Origin: Methylobacterium tardum
GTDB taxonomy: Bacteria; Pseudomonadota; Alphaproteobacteria; Rhizobiales; Beijerinckiaceae
Assembly: GCF_023546765.1 (NCBI RefSeq)
Contig: NZ_CP097484.1
Span: 4,186,001-4,250,000, forward strand
Direction: 5' to 3'
DNA length: 64,000 bases
Shown: piece after piece, positions 33,269-42,014 of the stretch
How the letters are laid out: each line of letters opens with the position of its first letter
How positions within the stretch are numbered: position 1 is the first letter of the stretch
Position numbers and translations under genes: made by a program
The notes under the pieces: model-generated
Told to the model about the DNA's origin: nothing
Database searches by the model: none
What the model saw: only the letters and a program-made list of their open reading frames with translations

Positions 33269-33308
33269 CGGGGTGTGGCGCAGTCTGGTAGCGCACCTGG
33301 TTCGGGAC
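33269..33308 (+). tRNA. 5' half of tRNA-Pro(CGG), interrupted by an integrated element
   Basis: Forty nt from the acceptor strand CGGGGTG through a normal D-arm and the anticodon loop TTCGGGA (anticodon CGG at 33303-33305), ending one base into the 3' anticodon stem. The sequence then stops matching a tRNA. The missing 37 nt, including T-arm, acceptor 3' strand and CCA, lie at 41978-42014. Joined, the parts make a 77-nt tRNA with every stem paired (7-bp acceptor, CCTGG/CCAGG anticodon stem). The gene as it stands cannot make a mature tRNA. Confidence 0.88.
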
Positions 33309-33328
33309 TTATACCCCCCGACAGGGGT
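33304..33328. repeat. Left terminus of the element with imperfect inverted repeat
   Basis: Reading inward from the core: GGGAC-TTATA-CCCCCC-GACAGGGGTA. Read inward on the opposite strand, the right end gives GTCCC-ACTGTT-CCCCCC-AGGGCGGGTA (41952-41977). The common plan is core, 5-6 bp spacer, six C, then a G-run and TA, as expected for recombinase arm or core-flank sites. Confidence 0.4.
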
Positions 33329-33386
33329 ACTATGTATTTAGATACAAGCGGTTAGGGGTGTGATACCTCATATCGAGTGGTAACAT

Positions 33387-33463
33387 CGGGGCGTAGCTCA
33401 GCCTGGTAGAGCGGATGGTTTGGGACCATCAGGTCGCACGTTCGAGTCGTGTCGCCCCGACCA
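33387..33463 (+). tRNA. tRNA-Pro (anticodon UGG), carried inside the element
   Basis: Complete 77-nt cloverleaf: acceptor CGGGGCG/CGCCCCG with discriminator A and encoded CCA, D-stem GCTC/GAGC, anticodon stem GATGG/CCATC around loop TTTGGGA (anticodon TGG at 33421-33423), T-stem GCACG/CGTGT with TTCGAGT loop. It sits 78 nt inside the left edge of the element that disrupts tRNA-Pro(CGG). In Salmonella a U34-modified tRNA-Pro(UGG) can read all four Pro codons, so this gene could offset loss of the CGG isoacceptor. That compensation is inference. Confidence 0.92.
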
Positions 33464-33577
33464 ATTTTTAGTTCGAGTACCCTGCTTGAGAATGGGTACG
33501 CCCGTTTTGAGCCTGTGCCGCCTTGGGTCCACCAACCACAGACCAGCGATTACTAGGGCCTTGCTCAGAGTTCTCGG

Positions 33578-34318
33578 CTAGCTAGTGTGGGACAAGACCT
33601 GACGAAGAGCCTCGGCGAAGCCTGGGCGAGCAATCTCGATGTCAAACGCATCGACCAACGCACCATGCTCGTTCGTACGCCATTTCTTTGTAGTCATATT
33701 TGCCTCGCTGACGAAGTGCTCAATGGCATCGCGGCGCGACCTCGACATCTTCGTCATCCCCGCCGCGGTCGCAGGTAGCCCCTGTGCCGACGTGCTGAGC
33801 ACCGTCGGGATAGGAGGTGCCTCCCGCGCGATCTGGTTCTTGAGAAGGTTCACCTGATTCCGGAGGCTCGCGCAGTCATGGAGGAGCAGCCGAACCTGAT
33901 TTCGTGCCGACGTATCGTTTATGGCTGCTAGGAGAGCATCATCCTTGTCGACGGGCACCGGCAGAGCCTTCGGTTTCTCGACCTCTCCCTCGAATAGTTC
34001 GATGAGCGCTCGGTAATCAGAACCGTTGGCGTTCCTGATGGTCTGAGCGGTCGGACCGCCGCAAGCCGCCGTGCGGTTGCCAACCGTCGAGACGCGGTAG
34101 TCCTGAGATCGAGCGCTCGCTTGGATGAGGAGCACCCAGGCGAGGTTTCTGAGTTGGCGGATCTTGGTGGTGCTCGACGTGCGCGAGAGGATCTCGCGGT
34201 AACGCTCCAGGGTTCGCGGGTAGCCGGCGAGGGCACCTTCGGGCTCGAAGGCGTCTGGGACTTGCTCGGCCAGCTTGATCCCCGGGGAAGGCTGCGGCAG
34301 GTGGAACTCTTCGTCCAT
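33578..34318 (-). CDS. GmtX-like small protein of the mobile element
   Basis: About 246 residues. The N-terminal half has YREILSRTSSTTKIRQLRNL, then CGGPTAQTIRNANGSDYRALIELFE, a pattern I associate with the third protein of GMT-type elements; this is recall, not a search. The middle is coiled-coil-like (LLLHDCASLRNQVNLLKNQ) and the C-terminus has HFVSEANMTTKKWRTNEHG, possibly DNA-contacting. ATG 34318 is preceded by AGGA at about 7 nt; GTG 34324 is the alternative. It starts a few bases after the helicase stop, so it is the last gene of the operon. The function in recombination is unknown. Confidence 0.55.
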   Translation of the reverse strand: MDEEFHLPQPSPGIKLAEQVPDAFEPEGALAGYPRTLERYREILSRTSSTTKIRQLRNLAWVLLIQASARSQDYRVSTVGNRTAACGGPTAQTIRNANGSDYRALIELFEGEVEKPKALPVPVDKDDALLAAINDTSARNQVRLLLHDCASLRNQVNLLKNQIAREAPPIPTVLSTSAQGLPATAAGMTKMSRSRRDAIEHFVSEANMTTKKWRTNEHGALVDAFDIEIARPGFAEALRQVLSHTS

Positions 34319-34327
34319 CGTCACTTC

Positions 34328-40100: not shown

Positions 40101-40313
40101 TGCAATGGACGCAAGCAACGCCAACGCCTTCGGACGCGCTCTTGGCTTGCGTCGTAGAATAGCAGCGATCGCATCTGTCGCCGCTATGGCACTCTCGGGG
40201 TTGAATGGGTCGATGACGGTCAGCCGTACATCATCGGCAGCAACAAACAGCGGCGGATCGCTCGCAAGATCAGGAGCTACCTCGATAGGCGACAGGCTTG
40301 TGATGCATCCCAT
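37139..40313 (-). pseudogene. Large integrase-like protein (GmtZ/VPA1269-like), two frame breaks
   Basis: Three ORF pieces make one protein of about 1058 residues. The first piece (start 40313) joins the second if one base is added to the A4 run (plus strand) at 39970-39973, giving GAILFPRNFVRGGETLF. The second joins the third with one base added at AAA 39206-39208, giving YRFEGVVNPVPQDAI. A tyrosine-recombinase-like core lies near IFDLHALRVTGLTAFAKAG, GHASILMTLYYTRMD (H-x-x-R, GH, Y). A Cys-rich stretch follows (ICPNGRTRCHEGG; GNCALCRFF), likely metal binding. Such long integrases are the second member of GMT-type trios. It starts 6 nt after the GmtY-like stop. Confidence 0.68.
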
Positions 40314-40319
40314 CGTTGC

Positions 40320-41756
40320 TTACGCCCCTGCCAGTATAGGAAGCTCAATCCGCTCTTGTCGCGAGACGGCGTGGTTCAGAATGCGGTTCACCTTATCTGC
40401 GTCCGGGCGCGTGTAAATCGCGGTGCTCTCTGGCGACTTGTGGTGCATCGCCTTCTGGATCACGGCCTGAGGCACGTCCGCGTCGGTCAATATTTGACCG
40501 TAATGGTGCCGCAGCCCGTGCGACGTACCCCCGGTCTCCTTAACTGGCTTTATGCCCACGGACTTTACGGCCCTGGCTAATTTCTTGTTATACTGCTTGA
40601 TCTTATACGGACTGCCAGCGCCGCGCCCCTCGTGGGTAACGAATAGAAAAGGGCTGGACGTCGGTGGCCTTACATCACTGACATAGGATCTGTATAACCC
40701 CCAAAAGACTTTGCCCCACCAAGTAGGGAACCATTGAACCTCTAGGTAGAAGTCACCGGATTTCTCTCTTACGAGGAGAGGATCCTTCCATCCGGCAAAG
40801 AGGTGCTTCGAGCCGGACTTGTGACGCGGGCAGAGACCTTGTGCGCGCAAGAACTCCTCGCGGCTGATCACGTGCCACTTCCGGTCAATCGGATTGAATG
40901 TGCGGTACTTCCCTTCGCTCGGGTGATGAATGCGAACAAGGGCGGAGCCGGGTGACCGCGGATCCTCCCGGACGTCGTCTAGGTATAGATGAAAGGGCTC
41001 CGACTCCCGCAACCCACCGGCCCCCTGCAGGATCGCGATCATCATGTCCCGCACGTGAAACTTCTGATGTGTCGCCCTCCGCTGATGTCTACCGGGTACG
41101 ACAAAACCCCTTCTGATTAGGTCGGCAAACTTGTCGGGTGGAAAGTAGGGCGGCCGAGTTTCGTCGATACGCGGACGACGCCTCATTGCGACATCACGTA
41201 CTCGACCTGCGCGATCCCAGGCAGCCTGCCGATCGCCGATGTGCCTCAAAAGGGACCGCCGGTTACTCAAGTCCCATGCACGAAATTGCGCTAAACGCTT
41301 TCCCCAATCGGCTATGGACCAAGGATTCAATTGGGCAGTATCACAATTCTCAAAACAATAATCCGATAACACCGTCAAACGTTTGACGTGAGCATCGGCG
41401 ACGTCAAACGAAACTTTTGGCCAGTACAAGCCAGTGGGGTCACTGCCATCGGTTTGGATAGTTCCGCAGAGAAGGGCCTCAGCAAAATCCGAGAGAATCT
41501 CTCGTTGCTGTGCTGTCCCATCGTAGAGATGTCCGCGCTGTTTCGCAAAATCATAGAATAGACCGAAAGCTTGGGTATATCCGCGCTGCCAGCTCGCGCT
41601 CTTCTGCCTGTTCCTCGGCGCTAGAAACCAGTCCAACAGCACCTGAGAAATACCGTCCTCTGTAAGGAGGACACGGACGGAAGATCCATGTGGCGTCGCC
41701 AGCGGATAATCGCAGGCGACGTGGTGAAGGGGAGCGATAGGGCGCTCTGCAGCCAT
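40320..41756 (-). CDS. Tyrosine recombinase, GmtY-like
   Basis: 478-residue site-specific recombinase. Catalytic residues appear as Arg in GAGGLRESEPFHL, H-x-x-R in SHGLRHHYGQIL, and His plus nucleophile Tyr in MHHKSPESTAIYTRP. The N-terminal part has a SAM-like core-binding region (WQRGYTQAFGLFYDFAKQRG). ATG 41756 is chosen over the longer frame (to 41825) because GGGAGG lies 6-11 nt upstream. It is the promoter-proximal gene of the element operon and the likely enzyme for integration at the tRNA-Pro core. Codon use is less G/C-biased than the host genes, fitting transfer. The subfamily name GmtY is from context. Confidence 0.8.
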   Translation of the reverse strand: MAAERPIAPLHHVACDYPLATPHGSSVRVLLTEDGISQVLLDWFLAPRNRQKSASWQRGYTQAFGLFYDFAKQRGHLYDGTAQQREILSDFAEALLCGTIQTDGSDPTGLYWPKVSFDVADAHVKRLTVLSDYCFENCDTAQLNPWSIADWGKRLAQFRAWDLSNRRSLLRHIGDRQAAWDRAGRVRDVAMRRRPRIDETRPPYFPPDKFADLIRRGFVVPGRHQRRATHQKFHVRDMMIAILQGAGGLRESEPFHLYLDDVREDPRSPGSALVRIHHPSEGKYRTFNPIDRKWHVISREEFLRAQGLCPRHKSGSKHLFAGWKDPLLVREKSGDFYLEVQWFPTWWGKVFWGLYRSYVSDVRPPTSSPFLFVTHEGRGAGSPYKIKQYNKKLARAVKSVGIKPVKETGGTSHGLRHHYGQILTDADVPQAVIQKAMHHKSPESTAIYTRPDADKVNRILNHAVSRQERIELPILAGA

Positions 41757-41818
41757 CAACGACCTCCCAGGAGCTACACAGCGAGCGGACACCTCCAATC
41801 GTGTGAGGCAACATCGCC

Positions 41819-41841
41819 ACATCACGGGAGGTATGTGATGT
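41819..41841. promoter_or_regulatory. Inverted repeat ACATCAC-N9-GTGATGT, candidate operator
   Basis: Perfect 7-bp half-sites about 63-85 nt upstream of the recombinase start, in an A/T-rich region (TTATATGTTATG follows). Placement suits a repressor or recombinase self-regulation of the element operon. No regulator gene is seen in the element. Confidence 0.4.
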
Positions 41842-41972
41842 TATATGTTATGGGTGTCGCAGATTAAATTGGGAAGCTTGGATCAGCGCCAACGCTGTGG
41901 ACAGAGGTCGCATTTTCCGCGTATCGATCCGAACCGCGTCCCTAATGTGATACCCGCCCTGGGGGGAACAGT

Positions 41973-42014
41973 GGGACCAGGGGGTCGTAGGTTCGAATCC
42001 TATCGCCCCGACCA
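41973..42014 (+). tRNA. 3' half of tRNA-Pro(CGG)
   Basis: Starts with the shared GGGAC core, then CAGG (3' anticodon stem), variable loop GGGTC, T-arm GTAGG/CCTAT around TTCGAAT, acceptor strand CGCCCCG and ACCA. It complements the fragment at 33269-33308. With no 5' half or promoter in front it is not functional. Its presence fixes the right boundary of the element. Confidence 0.87.

Follow-up and report, generated by a model that had tools for sequence, protein, structure and literature searches.

A mobile element of 8,669 bp splits the tRNA-Pro(UGG) gene of Methylobacterium tardum within a stretch of 64,000 nucleotides (the window; contig NZ_CP097484.1, positions 4,186,001 to 4,250,000), in a genome of 6.94 Mb and two contigs (G000). 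By landing in this gene, an element of the gamma-mobile-trio (GMT) type very probably destroyed the host's only tRNA-Pro(UGG), and a diverged tRNA-Pro(UGG) carried by the element takes over its role. Further genomes, among them G010 and G079 of the same genus, G028, and G027, bear on this finding. The insertion site, in window coordinates, is laid out as follows.

33269..33308, plus strand: 5′ half of the split host gene, tRNA-Pro(UGG), at attL; it ends with the left core, CGGGAC (33303-33308).
33309..41977, no strand: whole inserted element, 8,669 bp including one core copy; absent from G010.
33309..33386, plus strand: left end of the element, the 78 bp that separate the broken half and the replacement tRNA; 63/78 positions identical to the sister element of G079 (locus L136).
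33387..33463, plus strand: element-borne tRNA-Pro(UGG), complete; called by ARAGORN, and by Rfam RF00005 at 62.8 bits.
41978..42014, plus strand: 3′ half of the same host gene, at attR.

The host gene is broken one base 3′ of the anticodon loop. When 33269-33308 is joined to 41978-42014, ARAGORN calls a 77-nt tRNA, and it calls neither half alone; the coordinates that a preliminary description of this locus gave for both halves are thus confirmed. The same description held the joined tRNA to be perfectly paired and 77 nt long. The length stands, but the pairing is not fully Watson-Crick, as the ARAGORN structure contains two T-G pairs, one each in the acceptor stem and the T stem. Its further implication that no tRNA-Pro is regenerated at either edge agrees with the ARAGORN calls, which show none there. 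Both halves are also broken, as described, but the loss of function implied by calling them dead overlooked the whole tRNA-Pro(UGG) at 33387-33463. Assembly of the two halves in trans was also considered; the left half now has C as its first anticodon base, and bacteria are not known to rejoin tRNA halves of this sort.

Comparison with an empty site bears out that the split arose by insertion, as had been proposed. G010 (locus L170) holds the intact gene, the exact empty site, without the element. The left flank (window 23196-33308) aligns to L170 1-10110 with 93.5% identity and the right flank (window 41972-51638) to L170 10105-19764 with 91.1% identity. The two alignments have exactly 6 bp in common, which marks a core of that length duplicated on insertion. 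The two core copies differ, reading CGGGAC on the left (33303-33308) and TGGGAC on the right (41972-41977). The left half thereby carries C at the first anticodon position, and the anticodon of the joined gene depends on which core is kept: the left copy gives CGG and the right copy TGG. The joined site, searched with at most one mismatch, was matched in 25 of 59 genus genomes (G000 included), all 25 of which read TTTGGGAC, and a whole tRNA-Pro(TGG) with the common downstream flank is present in every one of the 25 empty loci. The split gene is therefore tRNA-Pro(UGG). The target had earlier been given as tRNA-Pro(CGG), an identity ruled out by the empty sites and by a separate CGG gene that is whole in G000 (L014); the C belongs to the left core copy. 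This whole tRNA-Pro(CGG) gene (L014 1501-1577) has the exact left-edge core, CGGGAC; both known insertions are nonetheless in the UGG gene, with core TGGGAC, and not in the CGG gene.

The tRNA at 33387-33463 is the sole whole tRNA in the window by both ARAGORN and Rfam, begins after 78 bp of element sequence on the left, and runs in the same direction as the host halves. It is identical to the host gene (taken from G010) at 61/77 positions; the anticodon stem holds several of the mismatches. Its top-ranked database matches reach 79-82% identity in phages and 84% in plasmids; a pattern for it was matched by G000 alone among 398 genomes of the phylum and by 0 viral contigs. The 46 Rfam tRNAs of G000, all typed, include proline tRNAs with the anticodons CGG (L014) and GGG (L027) and only one with TGG, the element-borne gene. 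Across 111 genus genomes, G000 included, a tRNA-Pro(TGG) pattern matched exactly once in 107 and not at all in 4, and never twice; the single match in G000 and that in G079 are of the element-borne type. In G061, one of the four genomes without a match, the UGG gene sits at a contig edge.

The replacement tRNA is only 78 bp away from the broken half and similarly oriented, which would also suit a resident tandem copy that predated the insertion, with the element landing between the two copies. We consider this almost certainly wrong: in G010 the flanks join directly, with no such tRNA; no genus genome among the 111 has two UGG matches; and the spacer separating half and tRNA belongs to the element and is shared by G079.

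The sister element of G079 (L136) lies in the same gene and at the same base as the window element. Among the loci compared, the flanks of L136 are closest to L033 of G028, with 93.3% identity over 388 bp and 89.2% over 1,159 bp. L033 is an empty site, and the left tRNA half of L136 shares with it a base that the window lacks. The two insertions are independent, in different clades. Both read CGGGAC at the left edge and TGGGAC at the right, and because this arrangement is shared, the left-edge C is probably the core base that the element brought with it rather than a mutation that arose later.

The gmt region is 76.3% identical between the window and L136 over 8,214 columns, and the replacement tRNA is identical at 77/77 positions. 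Such conservation, between elements whose genes differ by about a quarter, speaks against the carried tRNA being a passenger in a host for which UGG is dispensable and the CGG and GGG tRNA-Pro suffice, leaving no need for rescue. The CGG and GGG genes are indeed whole in G000, and CCA is rare, accounting for 5/85 proline codons in four neighbouring open reading frames (ORFs). By the wobble rules, however, neither a GGG nor a CGG anticodon decodes CCA; UGG alone among the three proline anticodons of G000 should do so. A UGG gene is present in 108/111 genus genomes, counting the one cut by a contig edge, which also tells against the passenger explanation, and we regard it as improbable. Replacement of the host tRNA by that of the element is the reading we prefer: UGG is presumably essential in this host, the replacement tRNA would be expressed and charged, and the host probably depends on the element.

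In the mechanism we propose, a GMT-type element would integrate site-specifically into the sole tRNA-Pro(UGG) gene of the host, at the anticodon arm, by a crossover within the 6-bp core YGGGAC, and so destroy that gene; because the core is only 6 bp, no tRNA would be rebuilt at the edges. The complete, diverged tRNA-Pro(UGG), brought in just inside the end of the 5′ half and in the same orientation, would take over decoding and, because its anticodon stem is changed, would be a poor target for the same recombinase. Exact excision should restore the host gene. Regeneration of the target from an attP fragment is usual for tRNA-targeting islands (PMC4383910), and the element might accordingly be an ordinary island of this kind that once regenerated its target at one edge and later had that copy lost or scrambled. 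Both insertions share the 6-bp core and the edges, so the short homology looks native, and the carried tRNA gene is complete, 5′ half included; a lost copy is thus highly unlikely.

The rest of the element consists of a five-gene block and the right end.

33578..34324, minus strand: gmtX, 248 amino acids in one open frame; NF040692 at 124.2 bits (cut-off 40).
34328..36609, minus strand: RecD2-like helicase gene, frame broken three times; the pieces match TIGR01448 below cut-off, and the start was set by comparison with L136.
36606..37136, minus strand: orf176, small protein; 84% identity in L136 and 39% in L137, common to this GMT lineage.
37139..40313, minus strand: gmtZ, frame broken twice; NF047926 at 485.5 bits on the C-terminal frame (cut-off 600).
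40320..41825, minus strand: gmtY, tyrosine recombinase, 501 amino acids in one open frame; NF040693 at 397.3 bits (cut-off 340), and PF00589.
41826..41977, no strand: right end of the element; the last 6 bases (41972-41977) are TGGGAC, and the tip is conserved in L136.

The operon is whole in L136 (gmtY, gmtZ, orf176, RecD2-like helicase, and gmtX), where GmtY scores 395.3 bits (cut-off 340) and GmtX 136.1 bits (cut-off 40). The NCBIfam matches to GmtX, GmtY, and GmtZ rule out a GInt or Tn554-like identity. Because GmtZ falls below its cut-off even in the intact L136 copy, the element is a divergent GMT-type element and not a filed GMT member. The L136 copy of orf176 matched no NCBIfam family, and its Pfam matches were all below cut-off. 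No offensive or defensive cargo was recognised in the ORF list or by Pfam and NCBIfam searches of ten chosen ORFs, and no phage structural genes were among the Pfam and NCBIfam matches, the 8.7 kb being filled by gmtX, the helicase gene, orf176, gmtZ, and gmtY. Between the window element and L136, the ratio of nonsynonymous to synonymous substitution rates (dN/dS) was 0.09 for the C-terminal part of gmtZ, 0.13 for orf176, and 0.14 for gmtX, and 0.035 for gmtY, where dS is saturated; the proteins thus appear to have been kept by selection between the two elements. GmtY and GmtZ are presumably the agents of recombination.

The gmt block is inverted between L136 (9953-18161) and the window (33578-41825). 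In the window the replacement tRNA is followed by gmtX to gmtY, and in L136 by gmtY to gmtX; in both, the left tip with the tRNA adjoins the 5′ half. A search for inverted repeats at the borders of this block produced no clear candidate. On one reading, the tRNA owes its fixed place to being kept behind the host promoter; the sequence upstream of the split gene, where that promoter would lie, is nearly as in G010 (3 differences in 68, counted by eye).

Several observations weigh against the proposed takeover or parts of it. The host-promoter reading is weakened by the lack of a sigma-70 consensus site in 33100-33600 and by the minimum-energy fold of a joint transcript, in which the dead 5′ half pairs with the 3′ end of the replacement tRNA; given this pairing, transcription running on from the host promoter may not be harmless. 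The fold is not more stable than those of shuffled sequences (z score -0.50). A terminator-like hairpin between the half and the tRNA (33312-33329) is at chance level, with 1 found against 0.5 expected. By eye the tips of the element have the look of inverted repeats, which local alignment at a score of 24 or more did not report. Three of the 111 genus genomes, G058, G098, and G015, have no UGG gene even with a second pattern and up to 3 mismatches. The intact GmtZ of L136 reaches 540.6 bits over the whole profile, below the cut-off of 600. The window element contains five frame breaks, two in gmtZ and three in the helicase gene, and because these two genes are frameshifted, this copy may be immobile.

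The helicase gene differs from L136, where it is one frame of 760 amino acids, by single-base length differences near 36259, 35537, and 34667; gmtZ, one frame of 1058 amino acids in L136, is broken near 39972 and 39198. Adjoining host genes are broken likewise, so decay and assembly error are indistinguishable, and the gmtZ and helicase breaks may be either. The flank alignment to G010 contains 16 gaps of a length not divisible by three. Three of them, near 25763, 26405, and 44715, where the codon-phase scan switches frame, were judged to interrupt host reading frames. The rest fall in sequence without coding phase, compensate one another at short range, or are accompanied by no phase switch. 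Break density is 5 in about 8 kb of element against 3 in about 20 kb of host sequence, both small counts drawn from different comparison genomes. The host genes with single-base breaks relative to G010 lie at 44200-46148 (break near 44706-44715) and 25216-27507 (breaks near 25763 and 26405), and one broken host gene is GGDEF/EAL-like by eye. Further codon-phase switches occur elsewhere in the window, for example at 10139-10378.

The logic of such a replacement is known from phages; here it appears in a non-phage element, with a mismatched 6-bp core and two natural insertions. Guerrero-Bustamante and Hatfull showed and named tRNA-dependent lysogeny in actinobacteriophages, including Fionnbharth, Gabriela, and Gaia, for which experiments demonstrated that the tRNA is needed (PMC10865867), whereas here we infer it; their discussion also points to a Lactobacillus prophage. 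Common to both are a tyrosine recombinase, a crossover in a tRNA gene, a short core, no tRNA rebuilt at the edges, and an element carrying a complete tRNA of the same isotype. The actinobacteriophage cores described are 8-11 bp (PMC10865867), in contrast to 6 bp with one mismatch, and the element there is a temperate phage, in contrast to an 8.7-kb GMT-type element in an alphaproteobacterium, targeting tRNA-Pro(UGG).

GMT systems are those of Mahata et al. (2024, Nat Microbiol), known here through the citing paper PMC12715929, and the comparison is by NCBIfam names. Like them, the element has GmtX and GmtY over cut-off and, in L136, a full-length match to the GmtZ profile; unlike them, its GmtZ is below cut-off, its operon includes orf176 and a RecD2-like helicase, and it has no recognised offensive or defensive cargo, the tRNA being the sole other gene found. 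The literature searched, outside which the original GMT description lay, showed no GMT element with a replacement tRNA, and absence from print is not claimed.

The anticodon arm is a usual integration subsite (PMC4383910, PMC8371274). The element shares this subsite and a tyrosine recombinase with the tRNA-gene islands of Islander (PMC4383910), which restore their target from an attP fragment, whereas the window element does not. An ordinary contrast is a Pasteurellaceae integrative and conjugative element that leaves one whole and one broken tRNA-Leu (PMC6861422). Closer to home, a prophage of Sinorhizobium meliloti (PMC11476347) likewise led to an alphaproteobacterial tRNA gene being replaced by a foreign-looking one after integration; that case is phage-related, and the text of PMC11476347 that was searched mentions neither tRNA-Pro nor gamma-mobile elements. 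An archaeal tRNA-Thr(GGU) locus (PMC3293823) has a recombinase-bearing insert flanked by a partial and a complete tRNA of one isotype, but the tRNA contains an intron, the insert is 1.8 kb, and the abstract names no GMT genes.

The window element would thus extend tRNA-dependent integration beyond temperate phages to another class of mobile element, with two independent natural insertions available for comparison. It offers a concrete case of a mobile element that is probably essential through takeover of a core translation gene, and of a foreign tRNA acquired by replacement. For annotators, a split tRNA gene need not mean a lost tRNA, as a compensating gene of foreign sequence may sit inside the element. 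Tentatively, replacement of an essential tRNA might be a wider strategy of non-phage recombinase elements, in which a replacement tRNA that is itself no target makes the element addictive. If so, random deletion would be lethal and only exact excision safe, the host might be shielded from agents that attack the native tRNA, and the inversion seen with G079 would reflect selection holding the tRNA next to the 5′ half, with the remainder of the element free to rearrange.

Related elements are sparsely distributed. GmtY exceeded its cut-off in 2/111 genus genomes and GmtX in 3/397 sampled genomes of the order; a GmtY protein search of 385 genomes of the class found G000 alone at E 1e-30, and viral contigs yielded one distant GmtY relative. 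The five-gene block is also present in G027, where ARAGORN found a tRNA-Glu and no tRNA-Pro in the 19.9 kb examined. A junction pattern with up to 3 mismatches matched 25/397 genomes of the family, a sample that does not include G079. The 24 matches besides G000 were judged chance, because a reversed control matched widely and ARAGORN, run on the 25 loci, called only tRNA-Leu, in 4 of them.

A whole tRNA-Ser(UGA) lies upstream of gmtY in 8 of 35 GMT loci (L113, L116, L118, L121, L123, L131, L133, and L134), all from Acinetobacter, at a distance of about 0.6 kb in 6 of the 8. This tRNA gene is a possible hot spot for GMT insertion; no long second copy of tRNA-Ser(UGA) was found within those 8 loci. 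Beside the GMT block of G072, an ORF of the cytidine-deaminase type (L138 14940-16787, minus strand; Pfam dCMP_cyt_deam_1 and MafB19-deam) is possibly cargo.

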